A stretch of 36,928 nt of DNA from Bacteroidia bacterium (lineage in GTDB: Bacteria; Bacteroidota; Bacteroidia; Flavobacteriales_D; Crocinitomicaceae): assembly GCA_030427935.1 (NCBI GenBank), contig JAUICI010000017.1, positions 1-36,928 on the forward strand, in the 5' to 3' direction. The position numbers and the translations under genes are program-made. The notes beneath the pieces were generated by a model. The model was not told the DNA's origin. It worked only from the letters and a program-made list of their open reading frames with translations, and ran no database searches. This document shows, piece after piece, positions 733 through 9,938 of the stretch (its first letter is position 1; each line of letters opens with the position of its first letter).

Positions 733-814
733 TGAAATAATAATCAGTAGTGGTTGAATAAATAAACAAAGATTTTAATGTGCTGATTTTTTGATGTGTT
801 AATATGCTAATTTG

Positions 815-849
815 TCCAGTGTCCAGATATCCATAAATCCAAATATCCA
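815..849 (+). repeat. Five-copy TCCA microrepeat before the repressor gene
   Basis: The motif TCCA occurs at 815, 822, 830, 838 and 846, spaced 7-8 bases apart, directly ahead of the ATG at 854. It occupies the expected leader or operator position of the XRE/S24 gene. It may be a slippage product or a cluster of half-sites; no Shine-Dalgarno sequence is visible in the same stretch. Confidence 0.4.
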
Positions 850-853
850 GAAA

Positions 854-1621
854 ATGAACTTCCCCCAAAACATCCGATACCTCAGAAATAAGAAAGGTTT
901 TTCTCAAGAAGGCTTAGCAAATGAGTTGGATTTGTCTCGGAATCAGATTGCCTCGTATGAAGATGGCCGTGCCCACCCTTCTTTGGATACCTTGATAAAA
1001 TATTCTGAATTCTTTCAATTGCCCATTGATGCTTTGATCAAGAGTGATCTCACCCATGCAAAAGATGGCACGTTTATGGATATAGGGAACAATAGGATCC
1101 TTTTTCCTGTTCTTATAGATGAAGACAATAAGGATATGATTGAAGTTGTAACCAAAGAGTCTTCCGCAGGTTATTTAAGAGGGTATTCGGATCCCGAGTA
1201 CATATCAGAATTAAAAGCTATGAAATTACCATTTTTACCAACCGGCAAGCATCGTGCATTTCCCATTCAGGGAGATTCCATGGAACCAATGGTTCGAGAT
1301 GGGGCCTATGTGGTAGGTGAATTTGTAGCCAATCTGGAAGAACTGAGAGACAATCAATGTTATATCATTCTAACCAAAAATGAAGGTCCGGTCTTCAAAC
1401 GAATTTCACTGGAAAAGATCAGTGAAGGGATTTTGGTTTTGAAATCAGACAACAAAGATTACGCACCTTACGAAGTCGCCATCGAAGATACTTTGGAGTA
1501 TTGGTCCTATACTTGTTCCTTGAATATCGGACAATATAAACCCGAAGAACTCAACCTAAACTCCATCATGGCCATGCTCCGCGAATTACGCGTGGAATTG
1601 AAGATGTTGAAGGAGGGGTGA
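854..1621 (+). CDS. XRE-family LexA-like repressor with S24 peptidase domain
   Basis: Predicted DNA-binding repressor that self-cleaves during the SOS response. Residues 5-60 form an XRE/Cro helix-turn-helix (FSQEGLANELDLSRNQIASYE). Residues about 100-225 form an S24 peptidase domain with a candidate cleavage pair Ala105-Gly106 (SSAGY), nucleophile Ser142 in GDSMEP, and general base Lys182 in VFKRI. The spacings (37 and 40 residues) are close to those of LexA and lambda CI. The C-terminus ends in a short charged helix. An upstream in-frame TTG at 812 exists, but the ATG at 854 starts directly at the HTH and is preferred, giving 255 residues. The gene diverges from a Y-family polymerase, so it probably represses both genes; this is inferred from family knowledge and layout. 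Confidence 0.88.
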   Translation: MNFPQNIRYLRNKKGFSQEGLANELDLSRNQIASYEDGRAHPSLDTLIKYSEFFQLPIDALIKSDLTHAKDGTFMDIGNNRILFPVLIDEDNKDMIEVVTKESSAGYLRGYSDPEYISELKAMKLPFLPTGKHRAFPIQGDSMEPMVRDGAYVVGEFVANLEELRDNQCYIILTKNEGPVFKRISLEKISEGILVLKSDNKDYAPYEVAIEDTLEYWSYTCSLNIGQYKPEELNLNSIMAMLRELRVELKMLKEG

Positions 1622-1635
1622 GAGTCTACACCCAT

Positions 1636-1671
1636 CTTCCTAACTGACGGTTTAAACCGTCAGTTAGGAAG
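1636..1671. repeat. Perfect 36-bp palindrome, family A copy 1
   Basis: A perfect inverted repeat with 18-base arms; the left arm is CTTCCTAACTGACGGTTT and the centre is TTTAAA. The same sequence recurs at 9385-9420 beside an IS200-like transposase, and identity extends slightly outside the palindrome (1635-1673 against 9384-9422). It contains the stop codon (1660-1662) and the last three sense codons of the minus-strand gene at 1660-2289. It lies between convergent genes, so its transcript could also fold as a terminator-like hairpin, although no U-run follows. Confidence 0.9.
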
Positions 1672-2289
1672 GAAGTCTATGACACGCTCAGACCGATCTC
1701 CATAATCATACTCTAATACTCTAAGCTGATTCTTCCCAACACGAGTGATCAAGGAGTCCATAACTTCATCGATAGGTTTTTCAGATTGATATAAATCTGA
1801 TTCCAGTATGCCAAAACTTCCAATCATTTTCCAACCCTCTTGGTGGCTGTAAATTGCACATGAGTTGATGTTTGACCAATCCGCATAATCGAAGATTAAA
1901 CCAATTTCATCCAAGCCATCACCGTTTAAATCTCCCAAATTTTTCAGCCAATACAATCCGAATATTTGTCCGGAGCACGTTATTGAGTCACGGTTAAAAT
2001 CAGATAAAATCAACAGTGGGTCCTTCTTCGTGTGGTAGTCCACAACTTCCTCATAAGAAATCGAGTCGTAAAAATTGGGGATTCTTAGTCCCGAATTTTT
2101 CGAAATGAGTTTCTCTGAAATGGTATCCCGTTCATCAGCACTAAAAAAGTGACCCGAAATGGATTTTTGTTCCCAATATTCAGCCTGTTCTTCGATTTGT
2201 TGAAGGACATATGTTTCTTGCATAACTTCACCTATGTTGAGCGAAGACGTGAAGTAAAATAAAAGCCCGAAAAGTATAAATGATTTCAT
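1660..2289 (-). CDS. Exported hypothetical protein with an FG-GAP/VCBS-like segment
   Basis: A 209-residue protein of unknown function. The N-terminus (MKSFILFGLLFYFTSS) is a short signal peptide, so it is probably periplasmic or surface-located. The segment NLGDLNGDGLDEIGLIFDY around residues 115-135 is typical of the calcium-binding FG-GAP/VCBS-like repeat found in secreted Bacteroidota proteins, but only one unit is evident. The C-terminal residues LPN and the stop codon are encoded by the family A palindrome, so the native end was probably replaced by the insertion. A perfect TATCTTTG box ends only four bases before the ATG, which suggests a leaderless mRNA. No enzymatic motif is seen. 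Confidence 0.7.
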   Translation of the reverse strand: MKSFILFGLLFYFTSSLNIGEVMQETYVLQQIEEQAEYWEQKSISGHFFSADERDTISEKLISKNSGLRIPNFYDSISYEEVVDYHTKKDPLLILSDFNRDSITCSGQIFGLYWLKNLGDLNGDGLDEIGLIFDYADWSNINSCAIYSHQEGWKMIGSFGILESDLYQSEKPIDEVMDSLITRVGKNQLRVLEYDYGDRSERVIDFLPN

Positions 2290-2293
2290 GTTT

Positions 2294-2301
2294 CAAAGAT
2301 A
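2294..2301 (-). promoter_or_regulatory. -7 promoter box TATCTTTG abutting a start codon
   Basis: Read on the minus strand, TATCTTTG matches TAnnTTTG exactly and is followed by AAAC and then the ATG at 2289. Transcription would begin at or next to the start codon. The -33 element is weak (CCTG at 19-base spacing). Confidence 0.5.
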
Positions 2302-2369
2302 AGTCTAACCACTTGAAAAACAGGTGTCAAAAAATAAGTTGACTCCAGCGAATAATAGAATTCTGCCCT

Positions 2370-2407
2370 CCCAAATAACCCGGGAATTCATTCCTCGGTT
2401 ATTTGGG
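2370..2407. repeat. Imperfect palindrome, family D copy 1
   Basis: Arms of 18 bases (2370-2387 and 2390-2407) flank a TC loop, with one C-C mismatch and one G-T pair. The core is GGAAT-TC-ATTCC. A related copy with the same core lies at 6736-6769. This copy sits between divergent genes, about 43 bases upstream of the ATG at 2451. Confidence 0.75.
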
Positions 2408-2450
2408 TGATAGAAGAGCAACTTCCAAATCAATTCCCCGTCAATTAAAC

Positions 2451-2789
2451 ATGAAAACAATCTTATTTACTGCACTATTATTTTTTTCATTTCAATCGTT
2501 TACTCAAGAAGAAGAATCAACAGCGGATACGTGCTTTTTACAATTACCTCAGTTTTTGGAAGCCACTTGTCATGAACCTTTTTTGGAAACTAAAGCCAAC
2601 TGTGAGATCGATACTTTCAATATTATAATTTTCAATCGATGGGGAGAGATTCAATTCGAATCAACTGATATTGATAATCATTGGTACGCTGCAAAAGCAA
2701 AAGACGGGGTTTATGTTTGGAAGATCTTCATTCGGTTTCTTTCAGGCAAAGAATGGGAAGGAAATGGCCACTTTACGGTTCTGAAATAA
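2451..2789 (+). CDS. Small secreted protein consisting of a CHU_C/type B sorting-like domain
   Basis: A 112-residue protein. A clear signal peptide (MKTILFTALLFFSFQSFTQ) is followed by about 30 residues with three cysteines. The rest matches the gliding-motility-associated C-terminal (CHU_C, T9SS type B sorting) fold: IIIFNRWGEIQFES, a WYAAK segment, DGVYVWKIFIRF, and the end GHFTVLK. Such domains normally sit at the end of large secreted adhesins or enzymes; here almost nothing precedes it. The start is the ATG at 2451 because it opens a proper signal peptide; the frame upstream lacks one. It ends 38 bases before the WD40-caspase gene on the same strand. It could be a remnant of a larger secreted protein or a free-standing secreted beta domain. 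Confidence 0.75.
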   Translation: MKTILFTALLFFSFQSFTQEEESTADTCFLQLPQFLEATCHEPFLETKANCEIDTFNIIIFNRWGEIQFESTDIDNHWYAAKAKDGVYVWKIFIRFLSGKEWEGNGHFTVLK

Positions 2790-2809
2790 GCCTTTCTTTC
2801 GTATCTTTA
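2780..2809 (+). promoter_or_regulatory. Candidate promoter of the WD40-caspase gene
   Basis: TCTG at 2780-2783, an 18-base spacer and TATCTTTA at 2802-2809 approximate the Bacteroidota pattern TTTG ... TAnnTTTG, each with one mismatch. It overlaps the stop of the preceding gene and lies 18 bases before the ATG at 2828. Confidence 0.4.
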
Positions 2810-2827: not shown

Positions 2828-5800
2828 ATGATTAACAGACTGCTACTTCTAGTTTTTTTTAGTGTTTTTTTATTTCATTCTCAAGCTCAAACCAGCCTCG
2901 AGCTCGTAGTTCAAAGAGGGCATTTGACAGCCGTTGAGAAAATGTGTTTCCACGAAAACAATAAGTTTTTGGCTAGTAGAGATGACCGTCAAAATGTGAT
3001 TGTTTGGGATTTCATGTTGGGAAAAGAAATCGTTCGATTTAAAGATACTTCGGAAGTAGTTGCGATGGACTTTCTTGCTACAAAAGATGTACTGGTGACG
3101 GCTAATGAAGATGGTTTTATCAAGTATTACAATATCGAAACAGGAGAGACTGATTTTCGCATTCCTTTTGGTATGGAGGTGAAAAAAATCATTCACTTCA
3201 ATAATGAAATTCTGTTGATGGGCGATGGCCTTTTCCTGGTCAACTTCGAATTAGGAGAAATCCATCCTTTGTCCAATTTTGTATTTGAGGATATCAAGTT
3301 TAGCTATGACAATTTCAAGTTTGTAGGCTATACCATGAATCAAGAAGCCATCGAACTGGATTCTTTATTGGAAGAATCGAAAAGAGGATTTCTTTCTACT
3401 ATCGATTATTCTAAACTTTACAGGAAGAATAAGGTGTTCAATCCAATGGACAAAGTGAAATCTGATTTGATCGAATTGGATGCTAAAAATCAGAATTTCT
3501 TTTATTTGGATGAGAAGACTTTGATGTATACCGAAATCTTTACGGGGAAAAATTTGATCAAGAAAAATCTCAAAATTCCACCAGTCTGCATGGCCGTGGA
3601 TGATGGGGGTAAATATTTAGTGCTGGGAAGTGAGTCGGGGCATACTTCTTTATTTAATCTTGAAGATCACTCTTTGATTGAAAACAAGATGCATGTTGGT
3701 AAAATCAACGACATTCAATTTAGTGCCGACGGAAGATATTACGCCACAGTATCTGAAGATTTTTCAGTAATTGTATGGTCTACGATTGATGGGAAACCAA
3801 TTCACGACTTGAAGAGTCGTGCATTGCCAGTTTATGGTTTGGATTTCGATGAAGAAAATAAAACGCTGTATATGGCCCAAGATCAGGGAATGGCAACAAT
3901 CATCAAGTTGAAAAACAATATTGATCTTCCAGAAAAATACAATCACAGTAATCATGCTGGGGTAGTTTCGGATATTAAGTTTGCTGGAGATAAATATTTC
4001 ACCGCTGGATTTGATAATAATGTGATCTCGTACTCAACTTCGCATCAAATGATTGATCAAGTTCAGTCGGATAAGAAGAGTAAGAAAATTACAGAAAACC
4101 AAGCTTACGGAAATCAATTTGTTTATAGTATTCAGCCGAGTCAAGATGGTCAGAAACTCTTGGTTTTATACGGCGAAAATAAAGAAGATGAGGTCGCTTT
4201 TCTGAAAAGAGAAGTGAACGCAAATAATTTGAAATCCATTGTTTCCAAAGAGGCCAAAATCGACGAAAACTTCTCTAATGATTATAAATTTAGAGGAAGT
4301 GACTTTTTCTATATCCCAACATTCAATCAGGAAAACTGGGGAACAAAAACCTATGTGGGTTTCTTAAACAAGGATATCATGTTGTATTCAGGTGGGAACT
4401 CCTTTGGGGTACTTGCTCTTCAGAAAGGTGAGCAAGTTGAAATTGCTCCTCCCGTAGAGTTGATAGATGATGTTACAGCTGTTTGTATGCCAAATGAATC
4501 ACAGTTTTTCTTTGCCATGGGCGGGGTTTTGTATTCGATGAAGGATTACCAACAAGCAAATATTCGTGAAATCAATTTTCACCAAGATGTCATCACAGAT
4601 GTGGTTTCAACCAATCAGTTTCTCTTCTCATCTTCCATCGATGGTACCGTAAAAGTTTGGGATAAGAAATTGGAGGAACTCATCGCTACCATCGTTCCTT
4701 TTGTGGATAATTCCATGTTGATTTACACGCCTGACAAATACTATTTAAGTATCAATGGAGCACACCAATACGTGGGTTATAAAGTAGGGTCTGACTTCGT
4801 CCCTTTTGAAAATTATGATCTCAAATACAATCGACCTGATATCGTTTTAACAAGACTTGGATTAAGTGATCAAACAACCATTGATGTTCTTAAAAAATCT
4901 TATGAAAAAAGACTAAGAAAGTTTGGATTTACGAAGGAGGATATTACAAGCACTTTTTACATCCCAGAAGTTGAAATCACGAATAAAAGTGAGATTCCCT
5001 TATTGATCGATCAATCCAATATCGATTTGAAATTAAATATTCAAGACGCTAATGAAAACCTAGATCGATTGAATGTTTGGGTGAATGGAGTTCCTTATTT
5101 CGGGATGCAAGGTTTGGATCTAAAAAACCAGAGAACTAAAAAGACTCAAAAAAATCTCAATGTAGCTTTATCTAAAGGCAAAAATGTAATCGAAATTTCA
5201 GCAATCAATGCCTCTGGAGGAGAAAGCTTGAAAAGAAAAATTGAAGTCTTTAGTAATCAAGAAGCAGGCGAAAGGTCTTTGTATTTGATAACGATTGGTG
5301 TACAGGAGTTCCAAGATCCAAGTTTCAATTTGAACTATTCCGTAAAGGATGCAACCAATATCCATGATTATTTTGTAGGAGTTAATTTTGATCATTCATA
5401 CGACTATAAACTCCTCAACGAAGATTTCAATCTGAAACGCTTAAGCGAAATCAAAACCATTTTGAGCAAAAGTAAGGCACAAGATCAAGTAGTACTTTTT
5501 ATTGCCACACATGGACTTATCGATGCTGATTTCGAATACTACTTCGCCACATCCAAGACCAATTTTAATAAGCCGAGTGAAGGAGGGATTCATAAATCAG
5601 TTTTGGATAATCTATTGGACTCCATCCCTTGCAGAAATAAATTGGTTCTGTTCGATGCCTGTCATAGTGGAGAAATCGATAAAGAAGATGTCGTTCTAAC
5701 AGAAAACATCATTAAGGATGAAAATATCACGTTTAGAGCAGCAGGAAAGAGTATCAAATATGGTGATATCAATGTGCAACAAGTAGCTGAAATGGAAGAA

Positions 5801-6064
5801 TTGTTGTTTGAAGATTTTAGAAAAGGAAATGGATCAACGATCATGACTTCTTCTTCAGGAGTAGAGTTCTCCATGGAAAGTGATGAATGGAACAATGGAT
5901 TGTTTACATATGCCTTAATTGATGCTTTGAAAACTGCGGGTGATAAAAGAAATGTCCAAAACCTATTTGAATCCGTATTTTCCAGAGTTCAAGAATTGTC
6001 CAAAGGAAATCAGACTCCAACCATGAGATCCTATAATAGGAATGCCTCTTATGTGATCAAATAA
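2828..6064 (+). CDS. Exported WD40-repeat protein with C-terminal caspase (C14) domain
   Basis: A 1078-residue protein. A signal peptide (MINRLLLLVFFSVFLFHSQAQ) sends it across the inner membrane. Degenerate WD40 repeats fill residues about 30-640; the clearest are near 30-72 (ending NVIVWDF), 288-330 (SVIVWST), 376-410 and 584-630 (GTVKVWDK). A linker with a beta-sandwich look follows (about 720-810). The C-terminal caspase/metacaspase domain starts near residue 815 (LYLITIGV) and keeps the catalytic dyad: His895 in FIATHG and Cys945 in LFDACHSGE. The family is expected to cleave after specific residues, with the propeller as a scaffold or sensor; substrates are unknown. No T9SS C-terminal sorting domain is seen, so periplasmic location is more likely than the cell surface. 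Confidence 0.88.
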   Translation: MINRLLLLVFFSVFLFHSQAQTSLELVVQRGHLTAVEKMCFHENNKFLASRDDRQNVIVWDFMLGKEIVRFKDTSEVVAMDFLATKDVLVTANEDGFIKYYNIETGETDFRIPFGMEVKKIIHFNNEILLMGDGLFLVNFELGEIHPLSNFVFEDIKFSYDNFKFVGYTMNQEAIELDSLLEESKRGFLSTIDYSKLYRKNKVFNPMDKVKSDLIELDAKNQNFFYLDEKTLMYTEIFTGKNLIKKNLKIPPVCMAVDDGGKYLVLGSESGHTSLFNLEDHSLIENKMHVGKINDIQFSADGRYYATVSEDFSVIVWSTIDGKPIHDLKSRALPVYGLDFDEENKTLYMAQDQGMATIIKLKNNIDLPEKYNHSNHAGVVSDIKFAGDKYFTAGFDNNVISYSTSHQMIDQVQSDKKSKKITENQAYGNQFVYSIQPSQDGQKLLVLYGENKEDEVAFLKREVNANNLKSIVSKEAKIDENFSNDYKFRGSDFFYIPTFNQENWGTKTYVGFLNKDIMLYSGGNSFGVLALQKGEQVEIAPPVELIDDVTAVCMPNESQFFFAMGGVLYSMKDYQQANIREINFHQDVITDVVSTNQFLFSSSIDGTVKVWDKKLEELIATIVPFVDNSMLIYTPDKYYLSINGAHQYVGYKVGSDFVPFENYDLKYNRPDIVLTRLGLSDQTTIDVLKKSYEKRLRKFGFTKEDITSTFYIPEVEITNKSEIPLLIDQSNIDLKLNIQDANENLDRLNVWVNGVPYFGMQGLDLKNQRTKKTQKNLNVALSKGKNVIEISAINASGGESLKRKIEVFSNQEAGERSLYLITIGVQEFQDPSFNLNYSVKDATNIHDYFVGVNFDHSYDYKLLNEDFNLKRLSEIKTILSKSKAQDQVVLFIATHGLIDADFEYYFATSKTNFNKPSEGGIHKSVLDNLLDSIPCRNKLVLFDACHSGEIDKEDVVLTENIIKDENITFRAAGKSIKYGDINVQQVAEMEELLFEDFRKGNGSTIMTSSSGVEFSMESDEWNNGLFTYALIDALKTAGDKRNVQNLFESVFSRVQELSKGNQTPTMRSYNRNASYVIK

Positions 6065-6735: not shown

Positions 6736-6769
6736 TAAATATCCTGAGAATTCATTCCCGGGTTATTTA
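6736..6769. repeat. Imperfect palindrome, family D copy 2
   Basis: Arms of 16 bases (6736-6751 and 6754-6769) flank a TC loop; 13 of 16 positions pair canonically and one more is a G-T pair. It shares the GAATTCATTCC core and an outer AAATA/TTATTT stem with the copy at 2370-2407. The stop codon of the DUF1501 gene (6767-6769) is the end of the right arm. The rest of the intergenic stretch 6570-6735 is AT-rich and shows no other feature. Confidence 0.7.
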
Positions 6770-9321: not shown

Positions 9322-9384
9322 AGCTTGAAGATTGTGTTCATCTTGGACAAGATAGGAGCAGGAAGGTTTAATCTTGACCTACTT

Positions 9385-9420
9385 CTTCCTAACTGACGGT
9401 TTAAACCGTCAGTTAGGAAG
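9385..9420. repeat. Perfect 36-bp palindrome, family A copy 2
   Basis: Identical to 1636-1671, with 18-base arms and a TTTAAA centre. It lies 30 bases beyond the stop of the IS200-like transposase, in the position of a transposon-end hairpin. Its inner core GGTTTAAACC differs by one base from that of the hairpin on the other side of the gene. Confidence 0.9.
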
Positions 9421-9450
9421 GAGATATGGATGGACCTGTGGGGTAACTGC

Positions 9451-9855: not shown

Positions 9856-9904
9856 GATTGTGATTTAAGTGGTGTGGTAAAAAAATGAAAAGAGAGGTAT
9901 ATAA

Positions 9905-9938
9905 TCCATAAGTGCAGGTTTCAACCTGCACTTATGGA
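9905..9938. repeat. Hairpin B next to the transposase (family B)
   Basis: Arms of 16 bases (9905-9920 and 9923-9938) pair perfectly around a TC centre; the inner core is GGTTTCAACC. It sits between the transposase start and the metK stop at 9951. It may be recognised by the transposase and could also help to end metK transcription. Confidence 0.85.

Follow-up and report, generated by a model that had tools for sequence, protein, structure and literature searches.

The window, by which we mean the whole stretch of DNA that was analyzed (36,928 nucleotides from a draft genome of the Crocinitomicaceae), carries a LexA-like regulator gene and a 209-residue gene that converge on one another and, farther along, a Y1 transposase gene next to metK; three kinds of hairpin, termed A, B, and C, accompany these genes (Table 1). 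Hairpin A occurs twice, as a solitary copy where the convergent genes meet (A1) and as a copy beside the transposase gene (A2). A preliminary description of this DNA had reported that nucleotides 1635-1673 are identical to 9384-9422 (39/39), that the shared stretch includes a perfect 36-bp palindrome (CTTCCTAACTGACGGTTTAAACCGTCAGTTAGGAAG), and that the sequence around each copy is otherwise unrelated, all of which we confirm for the two copies, spaced 7.7 kb apart; A1, as also described, stands without a transposase of its own. Folded as single strands, A1 and A2 are much better hairpins than their shuffled counterparts (z of about -7.3 and -7.5), and the palindrome of A2 can be extended to 42 bp with one mismatch (9382-9423). 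The 209-residue protein agrees in length with a homologue, so truncation caused by the hairpin is not evident. Between A1 and A2 lies a gene for a 1078-residue protein (2828-6064) that, on inspection of its sequence, has a repeat-like N-terminal and a caspase-like C-terminal part and that is conserved in the sister genome described below.

Table 1. Genes and hairpins of the window, by position
Feature	Position	Strand	Remarks
HTH/S24 (LexA-like) regulator gene	812..1621	+	Converges on the 209-residue gene and stops 14 nt short of A1
A1 hairpin	1636..1671	no strand	TTAA tip; 26-bp core at 1641-1666; outer arms CTTCC/GGAAG, site-specific
209-residue gene	1660..2289	-	Final codons and TGA stop supplied by A1; missing from the matching gap of HKST-UBA68
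B copy, TTCA tip	2373..2404	no strand	Second palindrome family
B copy, degenerate	6737..6768	no strand	Second palindrome family
A2 hairpin	9385..9420	no strand	Same as A1; 28 nt beyond the stop codon of the transposase gene
Y1 (HUH, IS200-like) transposase gene, 134 aa	9451..9855	-	Carries the HIH and YIRNQEEHH motifs; lacks the C-terminal tail conserved in relatives
Hairpin C, TCCATAAGTGCAGGT-TTCA-ACCTGCACTTATGGA	9905..9938	no strand	Between the transposase start and the metK end; single copy in the genome

The gene adjoining A2 does encode a transposase, as had been proposed: its product carries the catalytic Y1 motifs, matches Pfam Y1_Tnp over almost the full profile (E value of 1.6e-27), and passes the NCBIfam IS200/IS605 model (71.8 bits; cutoff, 55). 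Against the model of REP-associated tyrosine transposases (NF047646), it scores 28.1 bits, below the curated cutoff of 80. The motifs Y---Q--HH and DH[IV]H of TnpA_Y1 subclass 1.2 are present as YIRNQEEHH and DHIH, and in place of the WQ motif of that subclass, found in close relatives, the protein has WA. It also stops 15 to 25 amino acids before its relatives, whose tail is conserved, and judging from this truncated sequence, the enzyme may be inactive or already decaying. The gene is present once in the genome, and the stems on its two sides are unlike: hairpin C differs from A in its stem, yet the two have in common the GGTTTNAACC center and the pattern TAAnTGnnGGTTnnAACC. At the feet of A1, A2, and C, no GTAG or GTGG (sought as GT[AG]G 0 to 2 nt 5' of the stem) occurs on either strand. 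A terminator search calls none of these three hairpins, none is followed by a T run, and none of the hairpins matches Rfam, so that neither an intrinsic terminator (GC-rich stem plus T-tract) nor a known RNA family accounts for them. No close relative of the TnpA was found in viral contigs, and the A core, sought as a sign of phage or plasmid carriage, has no match in IMG/VR or PLSDB.

A genome-wide search at up to three mismatches recovers A1 and A2 and no third copy of A in the 3.9-Mb draft (289 contigs, among which a copy may be missed), and a reversed control pattern gives none. A search of 239 further genomes of the family gives no match to the full palindrome. The chance that a random site comes as near to the transposase gene as A1 does is about 0.4%, and this closeness parallels the concentration of REPs near their own tnpA described in PMC8266576. 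Among 84,980 species genomes, the 22-bp center of A occurs in two stretches, one in HKST-UBA68 (Crocinitomicaceae; a distant draft MAG and the only other genome of the genus compared) and one in a MAG of the Saprospiraceae that belongs to the same sampling series, where it lies on a 3-kb contig of a low-coverage and possibly misbinned assembly; a looser pattern identifies a second copy in HKST-UBA68. All copies have in common a 26-bp core (TAACTGACGGTTTAAACCGTCAGTTA), one of them with a TGAA tip. The identity of A1 and A2 had been taken as a sign of recent movement or active maintenance; by itself it does not show recent movement, as the inner 26 bp are the same in the HKST-UBA68 and Saprospiraceae copies as well. 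Copying within the window lineage is indicated instead by the outer arms, which are identical in A1 and A2 and differ at the other sites, and from which it follows that the copied unit was at least 36 bp long.

The four copies that are remote from the transposase, spread over three genomes, all sit between the ends of converging genes, and no transposase is close to those in HKST-UBA68. One of the latter (L127 19875-19914) furnishes a 193-residue gene with its TAA stop and comes immediately after the stop codon of the gene converging on it, an arrangement that parallels A1. The 209-residue and 193-residue (C77 copy) genes do not belong to one family, since their products are not homologous (E value of 0.11). 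The gap of the window genome that is orthologous to the site of the other HKST-UBA68 copy (C120) has no hairpin.

Hairpin B (AAATAACCCGGGAATTCATTCCCGGGTTATTT; center, CCCGGGAATTNATTCCCGGG) is found at 10 places in the window genome and at 2 in HKST-UBA68, and its center, with different 13-bp arms, adjoins a transposase in L022. Contig ends of the window genome (L163 1-350, L164 1-300, and L165 1-80) hold units of about 171 and 202 bp, directly repeated in BIME-like arrays, within which lie further hairpins with TTNA tips (GGGGT-TTCA-ACCCC, TGGAA-TTCA-TTCCA, and GAGGGT-TAAA-ACCCTC). In a 444-kb sample of the window genome and HKST-UBA68, long hairpins are mostly terminators with A/T tracts or members of A, B, or C.

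The loops of all of these families follow one rule. They read TTAA in A, TTCA in C, TTCA or TTAA in B, and TGAA (TTCA on the other strand) in the second HKST-UBA68 copy, all of which are cases of TTNA. In the flanks of 40 related transposase genes, we counted hairpins with a 4-nt loop and a stem of at least 6 bp. At the eight TnpA genes nearest on the tree, which were picked after the hairpins had been seen and before the tree was built, 15 of the 15 hairpins within 300 bp of the gene have a TTNA loop or its complement, TNAA; at 500 to 1,300 bp from the same genes, the count is 0 of 5 (shuffle expectation, 0.34). These eight comprise one clade (support of 98/94, or 92/87 with two more members included) plus one outlier, and the sister branches of the clade have hairpins with other tips. 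At a Persicobacter plasmid TnpA on another branch, hairpins with equal stems (CGATGGGT/ACCCATCG) stand on both sides of the gene (L161 1397-1416 and 1987-2006), and their loops are different and non-TTNA, the converse of the arrangement in the window; the tip rule is thus specific to the clade. Elsewhere, the hairpin ATAGCYCAGGGTTTAAACCCTGGGCTAT is repeated three times in tandem with a 75-bp period directly upstream of a related transposase (L017 48-225). The association of this TnpA clade with TTNA hairpins is new, the subclass having been reported without such hairpins. The rule has a precedent in Marinomonas, where SELEX and mutants showed in vitro that the loop bases T, T, and A are essential to TnpA_REP and that the third base is free (PMC8266576); it is met here independently, in a different subclass.

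We consider it moderately probable that A1 is a nonautonomous REP-like hairpin whose TTNA tip is read by the neighboring Y1 transposase or a close relative and which was copied in trans from A2. The TTAA loop would be read in single-stranded DNA by that enzyme; A2 would most likely have been copied, outer arms included, to the 3' end of the 209-residue gene, giving rise to A1; and A1 would survive where the two genes converge, as a bidirectional transcript end that does no harm and is perhaps of use. It is probable that TnpA recognizes the tip and relocates such hairpins within the genome. Putative recognition of the tip is supported by the clade-wide TTNA association and by analogy with the biochemically tested relative, and we infer the further steps, namely, cleavage and strand transfer by TnpA, the direction from A2 to A1, the timing, and the role as a transcript end. 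The preliminary description, which had proposed a REP-like element mobilized in trans, is partly supported: its observation holds and the TTNA tip accompanies TnpA throughout the clade, and mobilization of A1 is what the anatomy suggests. Weighing against copying in trans are the lack of a GTAG/GTGG foot, the presence of only two copies, the missing tail of TnpA, the distance of the comparison genome, at 73 to 85% identity, and the presence of A cores and B copies in that genome, where no TnpA of this clade was found.

HKST-UBA68 is collinear with the window over the entire region (73 to 85% DNA identity), and its counterpart of the transposase site is a stretch of 120 bp in which transposase, A, and C are all lacking. 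Neither A1 nor the 209-residue gene is present at the other site, where the regulator, a hairpin B, and the caspase-like gene follow one another directly. A and the transposase are thus missing at both sites and were either gained in the window lineage or lost in HKST-UBA68; conservation of the palindrome in place among all relatives, which the preliminary description had named as the outcome that would refute its proposal, is therefore not seen. The empty sites that the preliminary description had hoped for are, however, not clean, as the 209-residue gene is also missing and the two B copies of HKST-UBA68 (L071 3862-3893 and 10591-10622) occupy exactly the gaps that hold A1 and the transposase in the window. 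A 14-mer, TGTGGTAAAAAAAT, stands beside the metK hairpin in both species (window, 9869-9890; L071, 10577-10591; 0 of 500 shuffle pairs), which suggests that C in the window and B in HKST-UBA68 stand at the same spot, as though an exchange of hairpins had taken place. The 209- and 128-residue genes (window 1622-2800) are both missing from the regulator-caspase gap of HKST-UBA68, and A1 and B border these lineage-specific blocks. A composite transposon extending from A1 to A2 was rejected, the interval being collinear with HKST-UBA68 except for the lineage-specific genes. No TnpA of the relevant clade was found in HKST-UBA68, a draft in which a transposase could be missed, and its two core-A and two B copies indicate that hairpins persist, and perhaps spread, without TnpA.

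The joint absence of A1 and the 209-residue gene from that gap, together with the position of A1 at the extreme end of the gene, is what would be expected if A1 had not been mobilized alone and instead had arrived with the gene as one block (by horizontal transfer or palindrome recombination), or if the block had been lost from the sister lineage. We regard this as unlikely: in three other genera, no such hairpin stands at the end of the homologues of the 209-residue protein, and the outer arms of A1, with three more bases, match A2 of the transposase locus.

The outer arms also bear on how the hairpins are made. Outside the core, they are unrelated between sites and perfectly complementary for 5 to 7 bp (CTTCC/GGAAG, CATTCAG/CTGAATG, CTTTCTG/CAGAAAG, and TTTGTG/CACAAA), and the chance of arms that are wholly different at four sites, yet perfectly paired around an invariant core, is about 1e-15. 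In an alignment of six hairpins, nine stem pairs differ in both bases and none in only one (covariation score reached by 0 of 500 shuffles), and the inner 15 pairs contain no one-sided intermediates, a pattern that favors replacement of stems as blocks. Among B copies, site-specific outer pairing is likewise in excess, though less strongly (P of about 0.003). Arms that differ by site and still pair perfectly may reflect insertion into small palindromes already present, template switching, or selection. Since template switching is able to create perfect stems and to preserve them (PMC8794818), these observations would suit an A1 copy that arose independently of the transposase, through template switching during replication or short gene conversion between hairpins, with the same process rebuilding the outer arms at each site; such processes act locally, however, and explain neither the 7.7-kb jump nor the clade-specific link between TnpA and the TTNA tip, which leaves this account distinctly improbable. 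We give least credence to palindromes that function as bidirectional transcription ends or protein-binding sites and are kept identical by selection with no mobility, for although the four nontransposase copies all lie between convergent genes, A1, A2, and C have no T-tract and are not terminator-like (ordinary terminators of the same genomes have A/T tracts), nothing matches Rfam, and the sites are not conserved between the window genome and HKST-UBA68.

Copying of A1 in trans from A2 may be one instance of something broader, which we put forward tentatively and consider less likely true than false: the TnpA clade, which belongs to subclass 1.2 and comes from Bacteroidota, might run a loop-keyed REP system in which the TTNA tip is read and the stem largely ignored, so that one enzyme could act on many families of stems (A, B, C, and the tandem arrays), with stems remade at each site as paired blocks. 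Descriptions of subclass 1.2 have so far placed its Y1 proteins among neither the IS nor the REP transposases and give them no known substrate; were the clade consistently paired with TTNA hairpins, a simple cleavage assay on oligonucleotides would suffice for the substrate question. A tip rule common to such distant subclasses would suggest that this mode of reading hairpins is old and shared, and fixed cores with outer stems swapped as paired blocks would provide natural material for a clean test of the making and upkeep of long palindromes.

Several known systems resemble this one in part. With TnpA_Y1 subclass 1.2, defined by Y---Q--HH, known from Cyanobacteria and Bacteroidetes, and reported to occur in few copies, with REPs absent and IS200-type hairpins generally so (PMC6006769), the transposase shares the Y---Q--HH and DH[IV]H motifs, low copy number, and a Bacteroidota host; it departs from the published subclass in the TTNA hairpins flanking its clade and in WA for WQ, and it lacks the C-terminal tail that its relatives carry. 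IS200/IS605 elements likewise have hairpins on both sides of tnpA, and PATEs, which are related to IS605-type ends, are palindrome elements that carry no transposase (PMC3119063). Here, in contrast, the stems are two different ones around a single-copy element without mapped ends, and A1 is one bare hairpin, not two ends around a core; the similar subterminal hairpins, defined ends, and multiple near-identical copies of IS200/IS605 are lacking, the gene being present once with unlike stems. TIRtrons and TIRYT (PMC3733652) also combine Y1 genes with flanking inverted repeats that may be self-complementary and recur elsewhere, but their TIRs pair across the gene, many with GGGGWSAS, whereas each hairpin here is complete in itself and the loop is the shared part.

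The closest parallel is with the Marinomonas Mb REPtron (group 3, subclass 2.5; PMC8266576), in which hairpins likewise occur beside and away from a single-copy Y1 gene, with copies near tnpA, a perfect stem, and a TTNA loop; there, TnpA_REP needs the perfect stem, and a stem mismatch strongly lowers cleavage (PMC8266576). The window differs from it in having no GTAG foot tag, longer stems, 2 copies rather than hundreds, stems that are unlike across the gene, and a transposase of another subclass. As in REP systems, copies flank the Y1 gene (A2 and C) and occur elsewhere between genes (A1, 7.7 kb off); unlike in those systems, copy number is low (2 for A; 10 places for B). Since two defining features of canonical GTAG REPs, the foot tetranucleotide and high copy number, were tested and are absent, A is a variant of these elements, not a member, and one that probably works like a REP.
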